Virus record (IMG/VR): IMGVR_UViG_3300021356_000018
Span: 1 to 64,000 of that record
Length of the DNA: 64,000 nt
Source: a virus
Direction: 5' to 3' (one strand)
Shown: positions 11,565 to 54,969 of the stretch, piece by piece
How the letters are laid out: each line of letters begins with the position of its first letter
Numbering within the stretch: the stretch's first letter is position 1
Translations under genes and position numbers: made by a program
The notes under the pieces: model-generated
What the model was told of the DNA's origin: nothing
Databases searched by the model: none
Seen by the model: the letters and a program-made list of their open reading frames with translations, nothing else

Positions 11565-11586
11565 GGGCCAGTCATGGCCCTTTTTT
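11565..11586 (+). terminator. Terminator between convergent units
   Basis: Stem GGGCCA/TGGCCC with a GTCA loop and six T on the plus strand. It ends the small late gene; the end of hemC (minus strand) follows at once. Confidence 0.85.
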
Positions 11587-12406
11587 ATAATAGTGACATA
11601 CCGACTCGGATTCCAATGGTCTTAAATGAATCTAGATGACCTTCTTCATAGGCTAATTTACCATTCTCAAAGTTTTTAGCTACCATTCTGATATTCTCTC
11701 CGTCAATATAGGTTAATGCACCAATCGGTGTTTGACAATCTCCGTTTATTGTTTTAAGCATTTCTTTTTCTGCCATACAACAATACCACGTTTCCATATC
11801 ATTTTTGTTTTGTATTTGTTTAATACTTTGATCGCCCTTACGAGTTTGTAAAGCAATTACACCTTGACCAGGTGCAGGCATCATATCAGCAGTACCAAAT
11901 ATACGACTTGCTTTAATAGTAATTCCCATCGCATCAAGTCCTGCTTTTGCTAAAACAATAGCATCATATTCGCTATTTTCTTGTTTAGCAATTCGAGTAT
12001 CTATATTACCACGAATAGGAACAATTTCTGCACCAGGATATAATTCTTTTAATTGCCAAATTCTGCGAGGACTACTTGTGCCAATTGTTCTTGGATTAAT
12101 ATGATTACCAATAAGTGCATCTCTAAAATCTGCTCTTGGTAATACACAGGCGATTTCTAATTTATCATCATTATCACGAGTCAAATCTTTAAACGCATGA
12201 CAAGCAATATCGATGTCACCATCTATAAGTGATTGTTCTATCTCTTTTGTAAATACTCCTTTGCCACCCATTTCTTCAATGGATGTTGTAGGATTAAGGT
12301 CGGCTGTTGAATCGATATGTACGATATCTAAATCAAGCTCTAAATGTTTTAAAGCTTTGTTTGTATAGGCGATCGCTAAGTCTGATTTACGAGTTCCTAT
12401 TTTCAT
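11585..12406 (-). CDS. hemC: Porphobilinogen deaminase (hydroxymethylbilane synthase)
   Basis: Joins four porphobilinogen units into hydroxymethylbilane in haem synthesis. Visible are the N-terminal GTRKSDLA, GGKG followed by FTKEIE, the active-site segment DIACHAFKD (Asp74), GTSSPRR, LAKAGLDAMG and PAPGQG. Cys224 in NGDCQTPIG is the residue that binds the dipyrromethane cofactor, so the enzyme looks complete. At 273 aa it is slightly shorter than cellular forms (about 310), losing C-terminal length. It ends a minus-strand run with two small membrane proteins and tRNA-Glu upstream, and the start overlaps the previous stop. HemE is encoded 9 kb away on the other strand. Confidence 0.93.
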   Translation of the reverse strand: MKIGTRKSDLAIAYTNKALKHLELDLDIVHIDSTADLNPTTSIEEMGGKGVFTKEIEQSLIDGDIDIACHAFKDLTRDNDDKLEIACVLPRADFRDALIGNHINPRTIGTSSPRRIWQLKELYPGAEIVPIRGNIDTRIAKQENSEYDAIVLAKAGLDAMGITIKASRIFGTADMMPAPGQGVIALQTRKGDQSIKQIQNKNDMETWYCCMAEKEMLKTINGDCQTPIGALTYIDGENIRMVAKNFENGKLAYEEGHLDSFKTIGIRVGMSLL

Positions 12407-12773: not shown

Positions 12774-12848
12774 TGGTACCCCGTAGGAGAGTCGAACTCC
12801 TGTTGCCGAGATGAAAACCCGGTGTCCTAACCACTAGACGAACGGGGC
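12774..12848 (-). tRNA. tRNA-Glu (anticodon UUC)
   Basis: Complete cloverleaf on the minus strand. The acceptor GCCCCGT pairs with ACGGGGT, the anticodon stem is CCGGG/CTCGG with loop TTTTCAT, and the T loop contains TTCGA. The CCA end is encoded. It is the only tRNA I found in the window. It sits directly upstream of the hemC group on the same strand; glutamyl-tRNA is also the precursor of 5-aminolevulinate in hosts with the C5 pathway. Confidence 0.95.
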
Positions 12849-15422: not shown

Positions 15423-15719
15423 ATGGAACAAATCTTGCAATTGATATCAGACGTCGGACTACCTATTGCTGGCGCACTAACAATGGGATTTTTCATATTT
15501 CTTATTATTAAGCAAATATTCGAAGGAATCATTGATAGTATCAAAACTCTAACAATTTTCAGTGAGGGTCTAGAAAATAGAGCGCGTTCTATGAGTAATG
15601 AAATTGTTAAAATCGACCTTTTAGTCAGTAGTGCATTAGACTTAAGACCTGATACGGATAGAATTGCAAGAGCAGAAAATTTTGTTGAAGACGGGAAAGT
15701 TGACGTAAGGAGAGACTGA
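15423..15719 (+). CDS. Holin-like small membrane protein A
   Basis: A 98-aa protein with one long hydrophobic segment (about 12-32) after a short N-terminus, followed by an amphipathic helical tail. It has the same layout as the protein at 15919-16224, so the two look like diverged copies. Position directly before csgF/csgG and the late promoter fit a lysis or secretion accessory role. Holin is a guess from topology. Confidence 0.6.
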   Translation: MEQILQLISDVGLPIAGALTMGFFIFLIIKQIFEGIIDSIKTLTIFSEGLENRARSMSNEIVKIDLLVSSALDLRPDTDRIARAENFVEDGKVDVRRD

Positions 15720-15929
15720 ATGTTATATTTTGATTTTCCATTTTCTATTACTGAAAATGGGTTGAAGTTAATTGGTGTGGATACAGAATTGGAACCACAT
15801 CAGCAAGTAAAAGTTGATAGAACACCGCTTAATGTAGGTGATACTTTTACATTGGAGTTAGATGAAGATGGATGTATGGTTTTTAGAAAACATGCACCAG
15901 TACAATATGAGTTAAACTTTGGAATTTGA
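15720..15929 (+). CDS. Small beta-rich protein, unknown
   Basis: A 69-aa soluble protein starting MLYFDFPFSITENG, probably all beta. It starts directly after the previous stop and overlaps the next gene by 11 nt, so it is tightly coupled between the two holin-like genes. Function unknown. Confidence 0.6.
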   Translation: MLYFDFPFSITENGLKLIGVDTELEPHQQVKVDRTPLNVGDTFTLELDEDGCMVFRKHAPVQYELNFGI

Positions 15930-16224
15930 TATAGCAACATTAATATCCGAATATGGCTTCCCAACAATCATGGTGGTAGGTCTAGGATATTTTGTTTATT
16001 TCGTTTGGAAATTTATTAACGAACAAATAAACCCAGCTATTGATAAACACCACATGCAACTTATTAAAGTGATTGATAGAGTAAGAATGCTCGACCAAGA
16101 CTTAATTCGTTTACAACAGAAAGTAAATGTAGTTTTGGAATATCGAGCAAGACAAGAACTGATGCAACACTATGATGATAAAATTGAGGCAGAGAAAAAA
16201 GATGAAAAAACTAAAGATAATTAA
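15919..16224 (+). CDS. Holin-like small membrane protein B
   Basis: A 101-aa protein with one membrane segment (about 14-33) and a coiled-coil, strongly charged C-terminal tail. The start is TTG at 15919, chosen because it gives the same N-terminal layout as the protein at 15423; an internal ATG would cut the membrane segment. The 3' end overlaps csgF. Possibly works with its relative and with CsgG in the envelope (inference). Confidence 0.6.
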   Translation: MEFDIATLISEYGFPTIMVVGLGYFVYFVWKFINEQINPAIDKHHMQLIKVIDRVRMLDQDLIRLQQKVNVVLEYRARQELMQHYDDKIEAEKKDEKTKDN

Positions 16225-16714
16225 TAAGACATTACTAGGGATTCTAGTTTTACTTTTATACTTTAGTGCACAGCATGTAATGGCTGAGCCTATTGTTCAT
16301 AAATTTAAAAATCCATCTTTTAGTGGAGTAGGAACTGGTGCTCATTACTTAACTATTGAGAACCAAGAACACAGCAGAAAGAAAGCAATTAAAGATGCTC
16401 TTGAAGCTGCAGAAAGAGCTGCACAAAGAGAATTAGATAATTCTACTCTATCAAAGTTTATTCGTAACTTGGAAAGTAGAATTTATGCTCAGTTAGCAAA
16501 ACAGTTAGTAGACAATATGTTCTCTAACGATGACGCAGTAAGATTTGGATCTTTTACATTGGAAGGTTCAGTCGTAACATATGAAGTCATTACAAATGCA
16601 GACGGTACAGAATTTATTAAGATGACAATTACTGACGAGAATGGTACTACAACTGTTATCGAGATTCCAGTAGGTACAGGAAACTTTGGAAGTGAGAATC
16701 CAGATGGCGGCTAA
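16202..16714 (+). CDS. csgF: Curli assembly protein CsgF-like
   Basis: Exported protein of 170 aa with a signal peptide (MKKLK start, hydrophobic core, VMA-E cleavage) and then VHKFKNPSFSG, which matches the N-terminal segment by which CsgF enters the CsgG pore and narrows it. The C-terminal part has ITDENGTTTVIEIPVG, like the end of CsgF. ATG at 16202 is used; upstream in-frame ATGs extend into the previous gene without need. It overlaps csgG by 11 nt, so both are made together. Confidence 0.85.
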   Translation: MKKLKIINKTLLGILVLLLYFSAQHVMAEPIVHKFKNPSFSGVGTGAHYLTIENQEHSRKKAIKDALEAAERAAQRELDNSTLSKFIRNLESRIYAQLAKQLVDNMFSNDDAVRFGSFTLEGSVVTYEVITNADGTEFIKMTITDENGTTTVIEIPVGTGNFGSENPDGG

Positions 16715-17675
16715 AATATTACCTGCACTTATGTCAACACTTATCTTGGCAAGTTGTGCACAAATGCCACAGTGGTCTGATGGACCAGCTTATTGTGAAT
16801 ATGGCGAAGGAAGATTTGCACAAGGATTTAATACCGATTTTGATAATGATGGTATTATAAATGATGATGCTTTAAGTTTTGGAAAACAAATATATACCGG
16901 TACTCGTAAATATGTTGAAACAAAACAAATTTGTGTCGAGGCACCAGAAGTTGTAAGGTTACCATCATATATTGATTTGCTTAATTTACCACCTGCTAAA
17001 AATAAGCCTGTGGTTGCTGTATATAACTTTTTAGATAAAACAGGACAACGTAAAGATTCAGTTTCTGGTCAAAGCTTTTCAACAGCTGTAACTCAAGGCG
17101 GAACTGAATTATTAATTGATGCACTCAAAACAGCAGGTGATGGTGCATGGTTTAGAGTAGTAGAAAGACAAGGGATTGATGCTTTAGTGAGAGAACGACA
17201 AATTATTCGTTCTGGCCGAGACGAAGCTGCTAGAGTATTAGGCGAAGAGCCACAAAATTTAGGACCACTTTTATTCGCAGGAATGATAATCGAAGGTGGT
17301 ATTATCGGTTATGATAGTAATATTAAAACCGGTGGCAGAGGAGCAAGAACACTTGGTATTGGATTTAGTAAACAATACAGACAAGACCAAGTAACTGTTT
17401 CCGTAAGAGCAGTATCTGTTCTTACAGGTGAAGTACTATTGAACGTACAAACGAAAAAGACAATTTTAAGTTATGGCTCAGGTGGTGATTTATTTAGATT
17501 TTATGAACAAGGAACACAGTTAGTAGAGTATGAAGACGGTGTAGGAAATAATGAGAGTGTGACGTATGCAGTGCGAACAGCAATAGAAGCTGCCGTGCTG
17601 GAAATGGTCTATCAAGGTAATCGTCGTGGATACTGGGAAATAGACTGGAATAAAAATAAAGAGGAAGAAGAATGA
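16704..17675 (+). CDS. csgG: Curli secretion channel CsgG
   Basis: Outer-membrane lipoprotein channel, 323 aa. The signal sequence ends in the lipobox LASC (Cys18). The CsgG domain includes VVAVYNFLDKTGQ, WFRVVERQGIDAL, the RQIIRSGR stretch, GGIIGYDSNIKTGG and VTVSVRAVSVLTGE. In E. coli nine copies form the pore that exports curlin subunits. The ATG at 16704 is preferred to TTG upstream. The last 10 residues are very acidic. The next gene overlaps by 4 nt and encodes a curlin-like substrate. Confidence 0.93.
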   Translation: MAAKILPALMSTLILASCAQMPQWSDGPAYCEYGEGRFAQGFNTDFDNDGIINDDALSFGKQIYTGTRKYVETKQICVEAPEVVRLPSYIDLLNLPPAKNKPVVAVYNFLDKTGQRKDSVSGQSFSTAVTQGGTELLIDALKTAGDGAWFRVVERQGIDALVRERQIIRSGRDEAARVLGEEPQNLGPLLFAGMIIEGGIIGYDSNIKTGGRGARTLGIGFSKQYRQDQVTVSVRAVSVLTGEVLLNVQTKKTILSYGSGGDLFRFYEQGTQLVEYEDGVGNNESVTYAVRTAIEAAVLEMVYQGNRRGYWEIDWNKNKEEEE

Positions 17676-18397
17676 TTAGAAAACTTTTAGGCCTAAGTTT
17701 AATTATTCCAACTTTCGCATTTGCGCAAGCTACTGACGATAATGAAATTAATATTGAGCAGGTTGGTGATACTTTAACACTATACATTGACCAATATGGA
17801 TATGGTAACAAAATAGGATTGGACAACTTTTCAAGTAGTTCAAGTGCTATGGTAATTACTGGTTCAAGCTTAGATATTGATATCGACCAAATAGGTAACG
17901 AAAACTTGTTATTTGGTACATTAACAGCAGATAGCTATGTTATGAATCTATTGTTTACTGGTGACAGTAACTCTTGGGATTGGAACATTGGTGATACAGG
18001 CTCATCTGATAGCTCTACAATGGATGTGGATATCACAGGTGATTCTAACACTATGGACTTTGACCAAGGATTTAATGCAAGTGCTGAGAGATTGGATTTT
18101 GATTTAACCTTAATAGGTGACAGTAATATTTTTGATGTTGATATTGACGTGGACGACGCAATATGGAATTTTGACGTAACGGGTGGTTCAAACAATATTA
18201 ATACTATGCAGAAAGATGGAGCAGAACATGAGATTAATTTAACTCTCGATGGTTCATCTGCTGATATTGATATTAATCAAATGAGTGGAACATGCCCTAC
18301 AGGTGTATCAACTTGTAATGGCATTATTACATTAGATGTCGACAGCGAAAATGCTACAATTCAGATTAATCAAAAAGATTCATCTAACGATAGCTAG
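17672..18397 (+). CDS. Curlin-repeat exported protein 1 (CsgA/CsgB-like)
   Basis: A 241-aa exported protein with a clean signal peptide (cleavage after AFA-Q near residue 19). After NEINIEQVGD and IDQYGYGNKI come repeated blocks of alternating hydrophobic residues with Q-x-G or G-D-S/N-x steps, the pattern of curlin beta-solenoid repeats, though very Asp-rich. A Cys pair lies near the C-terminus (TCPTGVSTCNG). It is the likely substrate of CsgG, with a 4-nt overlap. The high Asp content is unlike E. coli CsgA. Confidence 0.8.
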   Translation: MIRKLLGLSLIIPTFAFAQATDDNEINIEQVGDTLTLYIDQYGYGNKIGLDNFSSSSSAMVITGSSLDIDIDQIGNENLLFGTLTADSYVMNLLFTGDSNSWDWNIGDTGSSDSSTMDVDITGDSNTMDFDQGFNASAERLDFDLTLIGDSNIFDVDIDVDDAIWNFDVTGGSNNINTMQKDGAEHEINLTLDGSSADIDINQMSGTCPTGVSTCNGIITLDVDSENATIQINQKDSSNDS

Positions 18398-19502
18398 TAT
18401 TTTCCTAATGTTGCCGTTGAGTTTGTCTGCAGCAGACTCAATTGGCAACATTGTTGAATACAAAGGCGATGCAACTTTAACCAGAGAAGCTGGTGAAGAG
18501 TTTGTAGTAACTGGTGCGTTTATACCAGACATCGAAATGAACGATACGGCCGAAACAGAAAATGGCCGAATTAAAATAGAATTTTTAGACGAGGCAGAAC
18601 TTAGCCTCACAGAAAACACAAAAGTATACATCGATAAAGTATACTATGACCCAGACCCAAGCAAATCAAAAATGGCCATGAGAATGGCAATGGGAACTGC
18701 AAGATTTGCATCTGGTCGTTTGGGTATGGTCAATAAAAACAATATTGATATACAAACACCCACAGCTACAATATCAGTTCGTGGTACAGATTTTACAACA
18801 ACAATAGACGAATTAGGGAGGAGCCTCGTAGTACTACTTCCTGATGATAAAGGTAATCCATCAGGCACAATAGAAGTATTCAATCTGGGTGGTTCTGTGA
18901 TTCTAGATGAGGCCTACGCAGCTACAATGGTCTCAACTTTAGATAGTCCACCCACTAATTCTGTCACAATAAACAATATAACACCAGCGATGATTGATAA
19001 CATGTTTATCGTATCACCGCCTCAAGAAGTACAAGAATCTATAGACGAAGAGTTAGCAGATGACGCAAACCAAGACCAAGGTTTACTTGACATTGACTTC
19101 TTAGAATTTAATGAATTAGAATATGATTATTTAGCTGATGACGCTTTAGAATTTACAGAATTAGATATTGATTATCTTGATGTAGATTTCTTAACTGACC
19201 TTTTAGATGTAGTAGAAGAATTAGTTAAAACTACAGCAGCACTCGACGATAGAGCTATTTCAAGTAGTTCTTTTGGAGCACAACTTAAGGGTGCAGATTT
19301 TGGATTAAATGCAGATTCGCAATACAACGTTTTTGAAGATAGTGGTAGAATTGTATTTTACAGAAATGTACAAGGAACAATACGACTCGTATTTGCAGTA
19401 GATGCTTCAGTTAAACTTGACACTGAAGTAGATGGATATTCTGGTATCATTGACTTGAACAATGGCCAAAATTCAATAATTGTAATTAAGCAAGGTGGAT
19501 AA
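18351..19502 (+). CDS. Exported FecR-domain protein
   Basis: About 383 aa with a signal peptide (hydrophobic core around residues 12-24, SLSAAD cleavage) and a FecR domain between about 30 and 145, including PTATISVRGTDF, the family's signature. Residues about 230-290 are an acidic repeat of DIDFLEF-like units, and the C-terminus forms a small beta domain. The start is uncertain because the frame overlaps the curlin gene; ATG 18351 gives a sound signal peptide. FecR proteins bind in the periplasm and are often found next to CHASE2 cyclases, as here 2 kb downstream. Confidence 0.85.
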   Translation: MLQFRLIKKIHLTIASIFLMLPLSLSAADSIGNIVEYKGDATLTREAGEEFVVTGAFIPDIEMNDTAETENGRIKIEFLDEAELSLTENTKVYIDKVYYDPDPSKSKMAMRMAMGTARFASGRLGMVNKNNIDIQTPTATISVRGTDFTTTIDELGRSLVVLLPDDKGNPSGTIEVFNLGGSVILDEAYAATMVSTLDSPPTNSVTINNITPAMIDNMFIVSPPQEVQESIDEELADDANQDQGLLDIDFLEFNELEYDYLADDALEFTELDIDYLDVDFLTDLLDVVEELVKTTAALDDRAISSSSFGAQLKGADFGLNADSQYNVFEDSGRIVFYRNVQGTIRLVFAVDASVKLDTEVDGYSGIIDLNNGQNSIIVIKQGG

Positions 19503-19505
19503 ATA
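19498..19505 (+). promoter_or_regulatory. Possible late box GATAAATA
   Basis: GATAAATA at the FecR stop, just before the 29-aa ORF and the second curlin gene. It could give these genes extra late expression. Confidence 0.35.
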
Positions 19506-19508
19506 ATA

Positions 19509-19598
19509 ATGAGGTATAAAAATAATTACCAACGTTATTTAAGATTAAAATATGGATGGTTGCAAAGACCAGGACAGATAGTGGATATTTACATATGA
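19509..19598 (+). CDS. 29-aa leader ORF before curlin 2
   Basis: ATG at 19509 to TGA at 19598, basic and aromatic (begins MRYKNNYQRYLRL). AAGGTGG lies upstream, and the stop overlaps the start of the next gene as ATGA. That overlap fits translational coupling. It could be a genuine micro-protein or a control ORF. Confidence 0.45.
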   Translation: MRYKNNYQRYLRLKYGWLQRPGQIVDIYI

Positions 19599-20344
19599 AA
19601 GACGAAAAAATAGATAGAGGTTTACTATACTTAGGATGGTTCATTCTAGGAATGTATTTGTTTCTTGCTGCAGGAAAAGCTTATGGCGATAACGAAATCA
19701 GTATAGAACAAACCGGAGATAATCTTCAATTAGGCATCGACCAATTTGGTTATGATAATGTAATCCAAATGTTAGATAGTAATTCATACATTACAGCATC
19801 GAGTTTGGATATGTATTTGGTTCAATACAATGACCATACAACAACACTTCCTAATTCAATTACATTTGATGAAGTAAGTGGTTCAGGTAATCAAATGAAA
19901 TTAGGTCAAGGTGTCGATTGGGATACTCTCGATTCTGATACAGATTTAAATTGGTCATATGATTACTATGAAGGTGGTGGACACGAGATTGATATTACTT
20001 TATATGGTAACAATAATCAATTGGCAGTTCAACAAACAAACCAAACAGATGCAACAGACGGACACAACTTTGATTTACATTTAGCAGGTAGTAATAACGA
20101 AGTTAAAATTAAACAACAAAGTAGTGGCGTAAAGAATGTAGACCTTACAATATACAACGATTTTAACGATGTGTTCATTCGCCAAAAAGGCGCCAATGCA
20201 ACTCATAATGCTAATATTACTCTTGATGGTTTATATGGAACAGATTTAATTTTAAAACAAATGAGTACAACTAATCAGACATATAACTTATCAGTAGATT
20301 GTATGAACTCGAATGGTTGTGGTGTAACGGTGACGCAAGAATAA
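19595..20344 (+). CDS. Curlin-repeat exported protein 2
   Basis: About 249 aa. I start it at 19595 because of the ATGA overlap with the small ORF and because this gives a good signal peptide (hydrophobic 9-27, GKAYG cleavage). NEISIEQTGDNLQLGIDQFG repeats the opening of curlin 1, so the two are paralogues. Further strands carry Asn/Gln ladders (NNNQLAVQQ, NNEVKIKQQ, NDVFIRQKG), a closer match to CsgA than copy 1. Two Cys lie near the end (DCMNSNGCG). Likely CsgG substrate. Confidence 0.8.
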   Translation: MKDEKIDRGLLYLGWFILGMYLFLAAGKAYGDNEISIEQTGDNLQLGIDQFGYDNVIQMLDSNSYITASSLDMYLVQYNDHTTTLPNSITFDEVSGSGNQMKLGQGVDWDTLDSDTDLNWSYDYYEGGGHEIDITLYGNNNQLAVQQTNQTDATDGHNFDLHLAGSNNEVKIKQQSSGVKNVDLTIYNDFNDVFIRQKGANATHNANITLDGLYGTDLILKQMSTTNQTYNLSVDCMNSNGCGVTVTQE

Positions 20345-20655
20345 TGGAATTAGATATTTACGGAAATCCAGTAGGAACATTATATCCGGGTGATGAAGGT
20401 TGCCCTCAAGATATGATTTGTTTAACCGAAGAAGGATTTAACCAAATGCTTGCTGAAGCCGATATGCAATACAATACAGAAACGTTTCAAGTTGAGCCGA
20501 TGGGCGACGCAGAAGCTATTATAGATTTTACAACAGATTTGCTATTTTTAGATATATGGACAATTTTAAATATGGCAGTGCCTCTTACTATATTTGCCAT
20601 CTATGGCTTGACGCTATATGCTGGATTCAAATGGGTACAAAAACAATTTAATTAA
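20344..20655 (+). CDS. Tail-anchored membrane protein, unknown
   Basis: A 103-aa protein with a soluble acidic N-terminus (two Cys in GCPQDMIC) and one C-terminal membrane segment around 75-96 before WVQKQFN. The start overlaps the curlin 2 stop as TAATG, so it is coupled to the curlin genes and may act in their export or anchoring. No family recognised. Confidence 0.65.
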   Translation: MELDIYGNPVGTLYPGDEGCPQDMICLTEEGFNQMLAEADMQYNTETFQVEPMGDAEAIIDFTTDLLFLDIWTILNMAVPLTIFAIYGLTLYAGFKWVQKQFN

Positions 20656-20657
20656 TT

Positions 20658-21593
20658 ATGAAAACATTATTACAAAGGACCATACAGGATAAAGAGGTCA
20701 ATTTATATCCTGTTTGGTTAATGAGACAAGCCGGAAGATACATGCCAGAATATATGGCGATCAAAGAAAAATCAAATGGCTTTTTAGATATGGCTCTTAC
20801 TCCAAGTAAGGCAGCAGAAATTACAATGCAACCTATTAAAGAATTTGATATGGATGCAGCAATTATATTCTCAGACATATTAATAATCAATTATGCTTTA
20901 GGGCAAGAATTAGATTATACACCTAGTCCCGTACTGGGACCTTATAACGAATCTTTTTGGGAAACAACAGAAGGTGAGTTTATTCAAAAATGCGAACCTG
21001 TTTATGAAGCTATCAGAAGAGTAAGAGAAGAACTTGATGATAGTAAATCACTTATTGGTTTTGCAGCAGCTCCTTATACGCTCTGTAAGTACATGTGTGA
21101 TTCTGTAGATTCAGATATAGTTAACCGATTAATACCATATATTGTAACTCACCTTTCAATGCAGATTGAAGCTGGTTGTGATACGATACAAATATTCGAC
21201 AGTCATGCTGGTGATATATCGGAACATGACTTTGATGAAATTGTTATTGAACCAACAAAAATAATTGTTGATGTTATTCGAGCACATTATCCTCATGTTT
21301 GTATTATAGCTTTCCCAAGATTAGTTGGTGATAAAATAAACAAATACATCGAGATTGTCAATCCAGATTGTACAAATATTAGTGATGATAAACCCGTCGA
21401 TGAAATACACGGTGAAGTATTACAAGGTGGAATAACAGTACAAAGACTCATAAACGGAGAAGATATAACTCCTGTATTAGATAAAATGAAAGATAAACCT
21501 TACGTAGTAAATCTTGCTCATGGCATACATAAAACTACACCAGTAGAAAATGTGAGAGCATTAGTTAATACTGTTAAGGAATATCGTGCTTAA
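20658..21593 (+). CDS. hemE: Uroporphyrinogen decarboxylase
   Basis: Removes four carboxyl groups from uroporphyrinogen to give coproporphyrinogen. The signature PVWLMRQAGRYMPEY (Arg23, Arg27) and FSDIL with Asp73 are intact, as are FAAAPYTL and NLAHGIHKTTPVENVRALV at the C-terminus. It has 311 aa, slightly short for the family (about 340-350). It lies 2 nt after the previous gene and overlaps the cyclase gene by 8 nt. Together with HemC it covers two steps of the haem pathway; HemD and HemB are not in the window. Confidence 0.95.
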   Translation: MKTLLQRTIQDKEVNLYPVWLMRQAGRYMPEYMAIKEKSNGFLDMALTPSKAAEITMQPIKEFDMDAAIIFSDILIINYALGQELDYTPSPVLGPYNESFWETTEGEFIQKCEPVYEAIRRVREELDDSKSLIGFAAAPYTLCKYMCDSVDSDIVNRLIPYIVTHLSMQIEAGCDTIQIFDSHAGDISEHDFDEIVIEPTKIIVDVIRAHYPHVCIIAFPRLVGDKINKYIEIVNPDCTNISDDKPVDEIHGEVLQGGITVQRLINGEDITPVLDKMKDKPYVVNLAHGIHKTTPVENVRALVNTVKEYRA

Positions 21594-23658
21594 ATATCTC
21601 ACAAAATGGTGGACTGTATTAATTACGATTGGTGCATTCGGTGCTTTACAAATTAGTAATCCAGATATAATTCAATCTTTTAAATATTCTTATTATGACT
21701 ATCTACAATCAACACAAGAAACAATACAGTCAAGCGATATAGTATTAGTCAATATTGACGAAAAGGCGATCGCTCAAGAAGGTCAGTATCCATGGCCTCG
21801 AGATATAGTTGCTAAATATTTAAATGAAGCTCCTGCTGATGCACTTAATGTATTGAACATAATATATTCCGAACAAGATAGATTTGGTAAAGACAATGAC
21901 CTCGCAGAAGCAATGGCAAATAAAGCTGTCGTATTATCTTCTGCTCCCACTCAACAAACATCAGATGGAGTTGGAACCTTCGTTGGTGTTGCATTATTTG
22001 GAGAACAAAATGATAACTGGCTTTACGAATTCCCAGGCTTACTCTATCCTATTAATGAGTTATCTAGCTGGGCTTTTGGGGTTGGTGCTACTGTTGCAAT
22101 TCCTGACCAACCAACAGGAGTCGTGCGACGTGCACCGCTCGTTGTCAAAGCAGCCGGGAATCCCTACCCATCTCTCGCACTCGACACATTACGTGTGTAC
22201 TCTGGAGAACCAAGCTATCAGATGAAAGTCGGCACTAACGGTGTCGAATGGATTCGTATGGGAAGACAAAATCCAATTACAACAAACTCTTTTGCAGAAG
22301 TACCAATATCTTTTTGGAATGAGTTTGACTCAATCAGTATAACAGAATTATCTGAACGAACAACTCATGGCCAGAATCCCTGGAGCGGTAAAGTACTTTT
22401 ATATGGAATAACCGCAGAAGGTTACTCTAATCCAGTCGCAACCCCAATGGGTGCAAAGTATCCCCACGAAGTTCAAGCTCATCTGATTCAAACCGTTCTT
22501 TCAGGAGTTGAAATACAGATTCCCGACTGGCAGCCAATATTTGAGCTCGTCTTTCTTCTGATATGCTGTTTAGGAATCCTTGCAGCGGTCTATGGACTTC
22601 CCACAATTCCTGCGGTGATAAGTTCTCTTGCTCTTGTTGGTTCCGCTTACGGAGTAAGCTACTGGCTTTGGACCGATTCATTGACATTCGTCGACGCGAC
22701 ATTGAGTTCATTTGCTTCCTTAGTAGTATTTGCTCAATCAAGTTATAATAAGTATTATATCACGTTCCAAGAGAAACGTCAAATAGAAAAGCAATTTGCA
22801 GGTTATGCATCGCCCACAGTTGTTCGCCTCTTACAAGAGAATCCTTCTCTAATAAAAGATGGCATGAAACGTGAGATAAGTATTTGTTTTTCTGATTTGA
22901 GAGGTTTCACTCCGCTTGGGGAAAGTTTCGGTGACGACGTCAAAGGCTTGACTAAACTAATGAATGGATATATGGATGCTATCACCGAGCCTGTTCTCCA
23001 TGCAGATGGTATGATTATAAAGTATATAGGGGATGCGTCAATGCACATTCACAATGCACCTATAGAAGATAAAGAACATCCTAAAAATGCAGTACAAACT
23101 GGTATTAACATGCTTCGAGCAGTGGAGAAATTTAATGAACAGATTACGGCAGAAGGTAGACCACCAATTGGTATGGGGGCTGGGATTAACACTGGTCTTG
23201 GTTATCTTGGTGAGATGGGGTCTACAGCAAGACATAGTTATGACGTCCTTGGCGACAGCGTTTCAACTGCTGCACGAATTGAGTCAAAATGTAAAGAATA
23301 TGGTTGCTTATTATTAGTCGGTGAAGAAACAGTTAAACGATGTTCTCCTAATGATTTCTTTTTCTTAAAAGTAGATGACCTTGCAGTGAAAGGAAAAACA
23401 GTCGGAATTGGAATACACACTGTGTTAGACCTAGATAAGAATAAATATATTAAACCAGCAGAGATGCACGAAGCAATGCATTCAAATTATCAAAAGCAAA
23501 ACTTTGATAAGGCGATAAAAATATGTAATGACCTCATGGATTGCTTCGAAGGACAAATGCAAGGTTATTATAAAATGTGGATTGAGCGTTGTGAGTATAT
23601 GAAAACGCAAGATCTTCCGAAGGACTGGAATGGAGTTTTCATCGCGACCACTAAGTAG
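21586..23658 (+). CDS. CHASE2-sensor class III adenylate/guanylate cyclase
   Basis: A 690-aa membrane cyclase. Residues 8-22 are a membrane segment, about 30-310 an extracytoplasmic CHASE2 domain (IVLVNIDEKAIAQEGQYPWP), then three membrane segments at about 318-384, and a class III catalytic domain from about 428. Metal ligands Asp437 (FSDLRGFT) and Asp483 (YIGDAS), base-binding Lys479 and Asp553, and Arg564 are present. The transition-state Asn of the NxxxR motif is Ser560 (DSVSTAARIE), which may lower or change activity. About 75 residues follow the domain. The FecR gene nearby is a usual partner. Product cAMP or cGMP is inferred. Confidence 0.93.
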   Translation: MLKYLTKWWTVLITIGAFGALQISNPDIIQSFKYSYYDYLQSTQETIQSSDIVLVNIDEKAIAQEGQYPWPRDIVAKYLNEAPADALNVLNIIYSEQDRFGKDNDLAEAMANKAVVLSSAPTQQTSDGVGTFVGVALFGEQNDNWLYEFPGLLYPINELSSWAFGVGATVAIPDQPTGVVRRAPLVVKAAGNPYPSLALDTLRVYSGEPSYQMKVGTNGVEWIRMGRQNPITTNSFAEVPISFWNEFDSISITELSERTTHGQNPWSGKVLLYGITAEGYSNPVATPMGAKYPHEVQAHLIQTVLSGVEIQIPDWQPIFELVFLLICCLGILAAVYGLPTIPAVISSLALVGSAYGVSYWLWTDSLTFVDATLSSFASLVVFAQSSYNKYYITFQEKRQIEKQFAGYASPTVVRLLQENPSLIKDGMKREISICFSDLRGFTPLGESFGDDVKGLTKLMNGYMDAITEPVLHADGMIIKYIGDASMHIHNAPIEDKEHPKNAVQTGINMLRAVEKFNEQITAEGRPPIGMGAGINTGLGYLGEMGSTARHSYDVLGDSVSTAARIESKCKEYGCLLLVGEETVKRCSPNDFFFLKVDDLAVKGKTVGIGIHTVLDLDKNKYIKPAEMHEAMHSNYQKQNFDKAIKICNDLMDCFEGQMQGYYKMWIERCEYMKTQDLPKDWNGVFIATTK

Positions 23659-24267: not shown

Positions 24268-24594
24268 ATGGTGGAACTAACAGATGCAGCAATACTTAAA
24301 GCGATTGAGAGAACAGAGAATGACAGCCGAGATACTATTCGTCTTGGTGTCACTGGGGGCGGGTGTGCTGGTTTTGAGTATATCATTGGTTACTCTGATT
24401 CAGTGGGCAATGACGATACTATCTTAGATTATGGCAAATTTAAAATTGCTATTGACGAGATGTCTAAGCCTTATCTAAAAGATTCTACTCTTGATTGGGT
24501 TCGCGAAGGACTCAATGAATACTTTAAAATTATTAATCCAAACGAAATAGCATCATGTGGATGCGGAGTATCAGTACAGTTTAAGGACGTTTAA
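24268..24594 (+). CDS. A-type Fe-S carrier (IscA/ErpA/HesB family)
   Basis: A 108-aa protein with the three conserved Cys of A-type carriers: one in GGGCAGFEY and two in CGCGVS near the C-terminus. These proteins carry Fe-S clusters to target enzymes. No other ISC or SUF gene is in the window, so it must work with the host's system. HesB-like genes are known in marine T4-like phages. Confidence 0.92.
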   Translation: MVELTDAAILKAIERTENDSRDTIRLGVTGGGCAGFEYIIGYSDSVGNDDTILDYGKFKIAIDEMSKPYLKDSTLDWVREGLNEYFKIINPNEIASCGCGVSVQFKDV

Positions 24595-29206: not shown

Positions 29207-29734
29207 TTATTTCTTGTCCCAGTGTTCTTTTAGGACTTCTTGAGCTTTATTAAGTAGTTTTGCGTCAGCTTTCGTTAAGATGTTGAGCATATATTGCTTT
29301 TCATGCTTGAAAGCTTTGTGGAAGAACTTTTGGTCATGCTCGATTATAGATTCGGCATTAGACAAAAGGTCTGCGATTTTAATTGTTTGGGACTCGGCTG
29401 GGCCCAAAGCGAAGTGGTCTGCATCCATTTTCTTACGGAACGCACGGTTCCCATCGTCTTTTTCAGACACGTTGGTGCAGTAGTGTACATATTCAGCGAC
29501 TGTATCGCCAAACTTTTCTTTGATATCTCTTAATGTAACAGGAGTATCTTCTACGACATCGTGTAGTATAGCTGCAGCTAGCATTTCAGTTGTAGCTTCA
29601 ACTTCTTTTTCTAGAATGTCTGCGACTTGAATTGGGTGAACAACATAAGGCTCACCTGTATATTTTCTACGTTGGTCACCATGAGCTTCTATTGCGAACA
29701 TGGTGGCTTCACTTATTACTTTTCTGTCTATCAT
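29207..29734 (-). CDS. HD-domain (p)ppGpp hydrolase-like protein (MESH1/SpoT hydrolase type)
   Basis: A 175-aa protein consisting only of the SpoT-type hydrolase domain. The metal-binding pattern is intact: His18 in AHGDQRRKYTGEPYVVHP, His33, His58-Asp59 in LHDVVEDT with Glu62-Asp63, and KIADLLSNAES further on. No synthetase domain follows, so it resembles small alarmone hydrolases that break down ppGpp. The ATG at 29734 lies 7 nt after the -10 box, so its mRNA should be leaderless. Lowering the host's stringent signal early in infection is the inferred role. Confidence 0.85.
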   Translation of the reverse strand: MIDRKVISEATMFAIEAHGDQRRKYTGEPYVVHPIQVADILEKEVEATTEMLAAAILHDVVEDTPVTLRDIKEKFGDTVAEYVHYCTNVSEKDDGNRAFRKKMDADHFALGPAESQTIKIADLLSNAESIIEHDQKFFHKAFKHEKQYMLNILTKADAKLLNKAQEVLKEHWDKK

Positions 29735-29741
29735 ACTTGTT

Positions 29742-29770
29742 ATTGTAACACGTTCTTTTGTGTTTGTCAA
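29742..29770 (-). promoter_or_regulatory. Early promoter giving a leaderless mRNA
   Basis: TTGACA (29770-29765), 17 bp, TACAAT (29747-29742). Seven nt separate the -10 box from the ATG, so transcription should start at or next to the start codon; no ribosome site is present. Confidence 0.85.
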
Positions 29771-42298: not shown

Positions 42299-42814
42299 TT
42301 AGGCTCCCCTAAGAAACTCTAATACTGTTTCAGGTGATGTTTCTCCGTAAGGGTCAGTTTCACAATCATCAGATTTGCCAGGTTCAACAAACATCTTTTC
42401 GACAACACCATCATTTACAATCATAGCGTATCTCCAAGACCTTGCGCCAAAGCCTAGGTTATCTTTACGAACAAGCATATCCATTCCAGCGGTAAATTCA
42501 CATGAACCATCTGGGATAAATCTCACATTTTGTACGCGTTGGTCTTGCAACCAAGCATTCATAACAAAAGCGTCATTACATGATACACAGTAAACATCAT
42601 CAATCCCTTCTGCTTGAAAATCCTCAAACCTAGCTTCATAGCCGGGTACTTGGAAGTTTGAACAGGTTGGAGTAAATGCACCTGGTAATGAGAATACAAT
42701 TACTCTTTTACCACCGAAGTAATCATCGGTAGTGAGTTCTTGCCATTCAAAATCACCAGTATCTACGTTTCGAGAGCGTGTTTTAAAAGTTACATTAGGT
42801 ACTCTTTTTTCCAT
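42299..42814 (-). CDS. Peroxiredoxin, Prx5-like
   Basis: A 171-aa thiol peroxidase. [18 protein letters not shown] holds the peroxidatic Cys, and [12 protein letters not shown] the conserved Arg region. CDNAF-like Cys further on may be the resolving partner. Removes H2O2 or organic peroxides; a glutaredoxin gene at 54966 could reduce it. Phage-encoded, so it may protect during infection. Confidence 0.9.
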
Positions 42815-54257: not shown

Positions 54258-54659
54258 CTATAAGTCTGAAAATTTGCCGTGATTACCTTCATGCGAAGGT
54301 GGGTACCAATCATCGGGCTTAATTAAATCTGGTACTCCAAGTGGATTAGGGCGAGATGGCTTTTCACCTACCTCTTTGTTCATATTAGCTTTAAGAACTT
54401 CGTCCCAAGCTTTATAAGGGTCGACACCGAAAGCATCGAGTGTGCCTATGGCAACAACACATAGGTCAATTAATCCATCTACAATTTCTTCTGCATCATT
54501 TTCAGATACAGCTTTACGAGTTTCTTCTAGTTCTTCATTGAGAAAGTCAACACGAAACTCGAGAAACTTTTTTAGTTTCTCTGGATTGTTTTCAACCCAT
54601 TGTCTTGTTAGATATTTACCTTGCATTAAGTGAATATCTTCTACCCAGTTTTTACTCAT
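54258..54659 (-). CDS. MazG-like nucleotide pyrophosphohydrolase
   Basis: A 133-aa all-alpha NTP pyrophosphatase. FLNEELEETRKAV provides the E-E-x-x-E helix and EIVDGLIDL the second acidic helix. ATG at 54659 has AAGGAATGCCT upstream and overlaps the cytochrome gene end by 8 nt. Substrate could be dUTP, dCTP or a modified nucleotide. In T4 dCTP is destroyed to favour modified C; this enzyme might do it (inference). Confidence 0.75.
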   Translation of the reverse strand: MSKNWVEDIHLMQGKYLTRQWVENNPEKLKKFLEFRVDFLNEELEETRKAVSENDAEEIVDGLIDLCVVAIGTLDAFGVDPYKAWDEVLKANMNKEVGEKPSRPNPLGVPDLIKPDDWYPPSHEGNHGKFSDL

Positions 54660-54969
54660 TAGGCATTCCTTGTTGAATGTATACGCCGATGGTACCAATT
54701 TGACCATCTGTTAAACCTTTAGCTGTGGGCCACATCATTGCAGATTGTGGTCCTACGACTTGACCTGCTTTATAAGCAAGTAGTTTTGAAATAATGTAAT
54801 CAGCATTTTGTCCTTGTAATTTAGGACCTAGTCCGCCTTGGCCTTGTGGGCCATGACATGCTGCACATGTATTCCAAACTTGTCTGATATCTTTGAAGCT
54901 ATCAAGATTGTCTTCTGCTGCTGCATTTGCTGATAACACTAATGTCATCGCGATAATTAATTTGTTCAT
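54652..54969 (-). CDS. Exported c-type cytochrome
   Basis: A 105-aa class I cytochrome c. Signal peptide (cleavage ANAAAE near 18), haem-binding CAACH (Cys35, Cys38, His39), GLGPKLQGQ, and the axial Met in SAMMWPTAKGL (Met78 or Met79), ending in a helix VYIQQG. Closest to small c553/c5-type carriers. It must be matured by the host Ccm system in the periplasm. Overlaps glutaredoxin by 4 nt. Phage-made electron carrier. Confidence 0.92.
   Translation of the reverse strand: MNKLIIAMTLVLSANAAAEDNLDSFKDIRQVWNTCAACHGPQGQGGLGPKLQGQNADYIISKLLAYKAGQVVGPQSAMMWPTAKGLTDGQIGTIGVYIQQGMPNE

Follow-up and report, generated by a model that had tools for sequence, protein, structure and literature searches.

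A FecR protein and a CHASE2 nucleotide cyclase proposed to serve as the sensor of a phage curli cassette with a bacterial counterpart

Modules for curli (type VIII) secretion have been described in pelagiphages of the HTVC008M and HTVC023P types (Zaragoza-Solas 2020, PMC7029224; Wittmers 2022, PMC9599517), and pelagiphage curli regions containing genes for FecR and adenylate cyclase were reported in the latter study. The methylophage Melnitz (MZ577097; Buchholz 2022, PMC9004378) carries such a cassette as well. The curli gate CsgE and the curli regulator CsgD were reported to be absent from pelagiphages (PMC9599517) and from Alphaproteobacteria (PMC3521004). Another relevant system is the BiofilmReg operon of Burkholderia, which encodes a periplasmic FecR-domain protein beside a CHASE2 receptor and is linked to biofilm (PMC5192318). 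Hence, a phage curli cassette with FecR and a cyclase is already published and is neither rare nor new. Relative to the literature searched, the new elements were the recognition of the phage sensor as CHASE2, a bacterial operon of this kind, the exchange of the catalytic domain, the D/S active site and the tail of the FecR protein.

Based on the observed gene content, order and co-conservation, the domain architecture, the tail common to curlins and FecR, the bacterial counterpart, the domain exchange and purifying selection on the catalytic domain, we consider it fairly probable that FecR and the CHASE2-cyclase act as the sensory part of a curli cassette that is carried by phages and has a related operon in bacteria.

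The cassette was located on the contig IMGVR_UViG_3300021356_000018, a marine phage record with a length of 64,222 bases, and the first 64,000 nucleotides of this record, referred to as the window, were analyzed. Terminase and capsid genes of the T4 type were present, placing the phage in the T4 superfamily. The terminase was closest to that of Sinorhizobium phage phiM12 (59.5%), with Melnitz among the next ones (49.9%), and the comparison of the capsid protein resulted in similar neighbors. By these two markers, it does not belong among the typical pelagimyophages. A single tRNA-Glu was found in the window, and a search of the window for a tmRNA or a riboswitch of the Melnitz kind yielded none.

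The cassette was preceded by two small plus-strand genes of the phrog_18771 family, the first encoding a small single-TM or coiled-coil protein (15,423..15,719) and the second its paralogue, a small membrane protein (15,919..16,224, exact start uncertain). Next came csgF for curli secretion (16,172..16,714, start perhaps at 16,193 or later; PF10614, E 1.4e-16, above the cut-off) and csgG for the outer-membrane curli pore (16,686..17,675; PF03783, E 1e-54), the product of which had a lipoprotein-type N terminus (...LASC). A first curlin-like protein with QxG repeats and a signal peptide was encoded at 17,672..18,397 (PF07012, E 8e-4, slightly below the cut-off), and a second one at 19,556..20,344 (start possibly at 19,595; E 0.005, also below the cut-off), at the position conserved in the family. 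Against PF07012 the two scored 19.7 and 17.2 bits with a cut-off of 20.7, when a curlin of the bacterial cassette described below reached 25.5 bits and passed it. A model built from the phage curlins matched the curlins of Caulobacterales. The gene between the two curlin-like genes (18,336..19,502) encoded a secreted protein that has a FecR domain (PF04773, E 4.5e-10) and, at its C-terminal end, a beta domain. The second curlin-like gene was followed by ORF118, the small product of which has a TM segment at its C-terminal end (20,299..20,655, start uncertain; present at 21 viral loci), by hemE for uroporphyrinogen decarboxylase, inserted in the cassette (20,658..21,593; PF01208, E 6e-69), and by the cyclase gene (21,586..23,658). 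A DUF5658 protein gene (from 23,630) and an IscA-like gene (from 24,268) came after it. A reading of both strands placed all genes from csgF through the IscA-like gene on the plus strand, each separated from the next by a small gap or slightly overlapping it. The order was thus csgF-csgG-curlin-FecR-curlin-(ORF118-hemE)-cyclase, and CsgE and CsgD had no annotation in the related phages. These genes make up a predicted curli secretion gene set of the bacterial style.

The preliminary description had presented the FecR and CHASE2-cyclase genes as a pair. Both genes are real and intact; however, the second curlin-like gene, ORF118 and hemE separate them. The FecR gene itself was also correctly recognized, except that the start given at 18,351 is the second in-frame ATG, the open reading frame beginning at 18,336. 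The claim of a full-length membrane cyclase with a CHASE2 sensor held, as the intact frame of 690 amino acids matched both PF05226 (CHASE2, E 2e-30) and PF00211 (Guanylate_cyc, E 4e-16).

Genes gp014-019 of HTVC008M resembled the window in set and order (csgF-csgG-curlin-FecR-curlin-cyclase). The two differed in that the window belonged to another cassette clade, its phage was nearer to phiM12 and Melnitz by terminase and capsid, hemE was within the cassette, and the catalytic domain was 37% identical to that of HTVC008M. The order in Melnitz was also like that in the window, and the catalytic domains were 83% identical and shared the D/S site, whereas the sensors were just 32% identical and the Melnitz cassette lacked hemE. 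An inserted hemE was found in the cassettes of loci L004, L005, L006, L013 and L332 as well. The BiofilmReg operon differs from the window in that it contains a LysM-FecR protein and a histidine kinase instead of the cyclase, and no curli genes are described for it (PMC5192318).

The cyclase consisted of a CHASE2 domain, a TM region and a class III nucleotide cyclase domain. In the predicted structure, a hydrophobic stretch and long helices occupied residues 316-404, and the model matched class III cyclases (Foldseek). The catalytic residues, numbered over the full frame, were Asp437, Lys479, Asp483, Asp553, Ser560 and Arg564, and this register was confirmed by a PDB alignment with cyanobacterial cyclases. 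Five of the six were canonical, namely both metal-binding Asp, the substrate Lys and Asp, and the catalytic Arg. The transition-state Asn-Arg pair was incomplete, since Ser560 replaced Asn and Arg564 was kept. The site was named the D/S type after the Asp that fills the second substrate position and the Ser that replaces the transition-state Asn, a combination that occurred jointly in all D/S-type phages examined. The HTVC008M-type catalytic domains had Ser/Asn and the bacterial cassettes Thr/Asn (DKDTNR). A cellular source of the D/S type was sought among the top alpha- and gammaproteobacterial matches, where it was found in none of the 46 motif-readable sites, all of which had Ser/Asn or Thr/Asn.

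Lys and Asp at the substrate positions favor cAMP as the product of a class III cyclase. Judged by these residues, the putative product of the window enzyme is probably cAMP. Alternatively, the D/S domain could be a pseudo-cyclase that signals by conformation, or an enzyme making a cyclic nucleotide other than cAMP. The replacement of Asn by Ser together with Asp in place of Ser/Thr, seen in all D/S-type phages examined and in none of the 46 bacterial sites, is consistent with this alternative, and so is the strong constraint on the domain (catalytic omega of 0.04-0.11 across pairs), which excludes decay. On the other hand, the remaining catalytic residues were all kept. Moreover, Ma1120 of M. 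avium has Ala at the Asn position and is an active adenylyl cyclase, the activity of which is destroyed by the A164N substitution (PMC4215837); the loss of Asn in the D/S type is therefore not a proof of inactivity. Such an altered function of the domain was judged to be rather unlikely.

The sensor and catalytic domains had different relatives. In addition to the pair of the window and Melnitz, Melnitz and HTVC008M were 54% identical in the sensor and 37% in the catalytic domain, L038 and HTVC008M 29% and 66%, and the window and L038 64% and 41%, respectively. The identity switched near residues 391-405, directly after the last TM helix. In the sensor tree, the cassette clade of the window formed one clade (100/100), and joining the D/S-type rows was rejected (p-AU 4.7e-5), while in the catalytic tree the D/S-type rows formed one clade (100/100), and joining the cassette clade was rejected (p-AU 2.8e-4). 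Furthermore, loci L048 and L061 had close sensors (dS 0.28), yet a catalytic dS of 2.16, as expected from recombination. It was concluded from the AU tests that the catalytic domain is swapped among phages without the sensor moving along with it.

It was also considered whether the cassette could be a lysis or release device, in which CsgG and CsgF act as a gated pore or a pinholin and the cyclase times lysis, thus extending a proposal published for Melnitz (Buchholz 2022, PMC9004378). In agreement with this, tandem small membrane proteins were located 5' of csgF in most phage cassettes and not in the bacterial ones; among the scanned viral loci, 139 had a member of the phrog_18771 family, which occurred in neither of the two bacterial cassettes. 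However, two curlin-like genes were conserved in nearly all phage cassettes, when a simple pore needs none, and the original proposal had overlooked csgA/B, which were recognized later (Wittmers 2022, PMC9599517). A lysis function was hence regarded as unlikely.

The distribution of the cassette was investigated by scanning IMG/VR with an alignment of the cyclase. At least 496 stretches encoded a relative, which overturned the earlier view that such a cyclase is rare in phages, and the best 80 were kept. Among these, csgF, csgG, curlin, FecR, curlin and the cyclase were present in all 47 loci having at least 7 kb upstream, 44 of them colinear and three divergent. An independent scan based on FecR recovered csgF, csgG, curlin and the cyclase in 32 of the 32 loci with full flanks. 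Both scans favor relatives of the query, so the figures apply to these and not to phages at large. The co-occurrence of FecR and the CHASE2-cyclase was nearly perfectly conserved in these phages, and as every testable locus carried curli genes, the FecR-cyclase link in phages is a link to curli.

The expectation that FecR and CHASE2 genes are neighbors in bacteria was borne out too. Of the 57 CHASE2-receptor loci examined in bacteria, 34 had a FecR gene no more than 3 kb away, far above the background of five FecR genes in the 535 kb of the same loci beyond 3 kb. As those neighbors occurred without curli genes, it could be argued that the phage genes are a free-standing envelope-stress pair, which senses the envelope and reprograms the host independently of curli. 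Nevertheless, FecR and the cyclase were never found without csgF, csgG and curlin in the phages where the flanks permitted the test, and a free pair was accordingly rejected for the 47 and 32 loci; in addition, only curli-associated FecR proteins had the curlin-like tail. This explanation was considered quite improbable. Of the earlier idea of a captured sensor pair, the proximity of the genes in bacteria, their co-occurrence in phages and the existence of a bacterial operon of this kind were supported, the two phage genes being part of a curli cassette.

The bacterial operon, csgF-csgG-curlin-curlin-FecR-CHASE2-cyclase, was found in two related genomes. L084 (CANGEH010000001) is a Caulobacteraceae MAG, and the genes on either side of its cassette encode glycosyltransferases, a peptidase and a TonB receptor. 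The cyclase of L185 was 93% identical to that of L084, and the flanks were different, encoding an amidohydrolase as well as a metallophosphoesterase that resembles SpdA/CpdA, under the cut-offs of those families. The operon shared its gene families and the FecR tail with the window, and CsgG of L084 was 52% identical; it differed in having both curlins before FecR, the DKDTNR residues and no upstream pair of small membrane proteins. L084 and L185 are counter-examples to the published view, according to which bacterial curli operons contain neither FecR nor the cyclase. Neither gene was found in 20 ordinary csgG loci of Caulobacterales; thus the sensor is not required for curli as such. In a concatenated CsgF-CsgG-FecR tree, the grouping of the bacterial cassette with those of the phages was fully supported, and the bacterial cassette was placed with the subclade of the window (99/96). 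A single phage clade excluding it was not rejected (p-AU 0.18), so one capture, two captures and a return to a bacterium are all compatible with the data.

The FecR protein began with a hydrophobic signal-type segment. Its model matched the periplasmic FecR domains of PupR and anti-sigma proteins (Foldseek, PupR 6ovk, E 5e-5), and a PDB profile search with the cassette FecR gave zero matches. A middle part of low confidence was followed by a C-terminal domain, for which six strands were predicted at residues 331-386 (block pLDDT of about 74-86), and the last strand (NSIIVIKQGG) ended in the manner of curlin strands. This end was expressed as the motif [IVL]x[IVL]xQ, no more than five residues from the C-terminal end. 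The motif was picked after viewing a first set of sequences, and a second set, largely of new sequence with some contigs recurring, served as a check. In the first and second sets, respectively, it was present in 44 of 45 and 84 of 86 cassette FecRs, in 65 of 93 and 88 of 162 curlin-like proteins, and in 10 of 896 and 15 of 2466 other viral ORFs, while none of 37 other bacterial FecRs had it. Gln386 was invariant in the 33-35 aligned FecRs, including that of the bacterial cassette. The Pfam Curlin_rpt profile matched none of 35 FecR tails at E<=1, and the curlin-like character is therefore one of motif statistics and strand prediction. On these grounds, the cassette FecRs end in a predicted curlin-like strand, common to curlins and absent from other FecRs; a literature search found no earlier report of such a tail. 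The suggestion that FecR is an iron-dependent (Fec-type) regulator (Wittmers 2022, PMC9599517), which the FecR domain and the matching periplasmic fold would fit, is highly implausible and the anti-sigma identity was rejected, since the cytoplasmic anti-sigma domain (DUF4880) was not detected by profile in the cassette FecR, the N terminus was of the signal type, no sigma factor or TonB-dependent receptor is annotated beside FecR in Melnitz or HTVC008M, and the tail suggests curlin as the partner instead.

For the sensory arm of the curli cassette, the following sequence of events was proposed. CsgG and CsgF would form an outer-membrane pore exporting both curlin-like proteins, and the secreted FecR would engage either the curlins or this pore from the periplasmic side. 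By means of its curlin-like strand, FecR could act on the periplasmic curlin or the CsgG/CsgF pore by capping, binding or competition. The FecR domain could contact the CHASE2 ectodomain and report the state of secretion, and the ectodomain would set how active the cyclase is in the cytoplasm. Most likely cAMP, the product would then act on host receptors, or else the receptor might have another role. The contacts of FecR with curlin and CHASE2, the activity and product of the cyclase, the direction of signaling and the benefit to the phage are what we infer here, and the effector step through host receptors is the weakest link of the model. A cNMP-binding protein (PF00027) was sought in 13 phage records, most of them fragments, and none was found, when the control genomes were positive; any effector would hence have to be that of the host.

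A more specific form of the model can be put forward tentatively. The phage receptor may sense curlin and use a swappable catalytic cartridge, whereby a phage-only D/S cyclase with altered chemistry was moved between distantly related cassettes, the sensor was kept, and the curlin-tailed FecR reads curlin export. If true, such a receptor would be a sensor of amyloid secretion undescribed for phage or bacterial curli systems.

Phage curli cassettes are widespread in the ocean (PMC9599517). The bacterial operon and the curlin-like end of FecR provide a concrete model for their function, that of a secretion system with a dedicated sensor of the state of its product. The swaps between sensor and catalytic domains represent natural chimaeras, which may be used to identify both the signal read by the sensor and the resulting output.

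Two tetrapyrrole genes, hemE and hemC, were found on the window phage. The hemE gene (20658-21593, plus strand) was located within the curli cassette, and five other loci (L004, L005, L006, L013 and L332) also carried hemE inside or adjoining the cassette. The hemC gene (11585-12406, minus strand) scored 250.6 bits against the NCBIfam hemC model, exceeding the family cut-off, and its product kept the cofactor-cysteine motif GDCQTPIG. A tRNA-Glu(TTC) gene (12774-12848, minus strand) was observed near hemC. Heme genes have been recorded in a deep pelagimyophage (PMC7029224). Alongside the heme genes, the window carried a redox and iron gene load consisting of cytochrome c (54652-54969, minus strand), peroxiredoxin (42299-42814, minus strand) and IscA-like iron-sulphur protein (24268-24594, plus strand) genes. 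An HD_4-domain protein (29207-29770, minus strand) resembled small SpoT/Mesh1-type alarmone hydrolases.

Immediately 5' of csgF, tandem paralogous single-TM/coiled-coil proteins (phrog_18771) were encoded at 15423-16224 on the plus strand. This pair was seen in 139 viral loci, as well as in the phages HTVC008M and Melnitz, and was not found in the two bacterial cassettes (L084 and L185). A putative holin-like or pore-gating role is conceivable.

Four genome contigs (L085, L086, L087 and L111), which had been assigned to MAGs of Pirellulales, Flavobacteriaceae and Sphingobacteriales, clustered with the phage cassettes. T4-type replication genes were present on the 142-kb L111, and all four look like phage contigs wrongly binned into MAGs.

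An SpdA/CpdA-like metallophosphoesterase gene (L185:14694-15551) adjoined the bacterial cassette, and similar genes adjoined CHASE2 cyclases at two further loci, L187 and L188, all scoring under the families' cut-offs. This gene arrangement hints at cyclic nucleotide turnover at these three loci.
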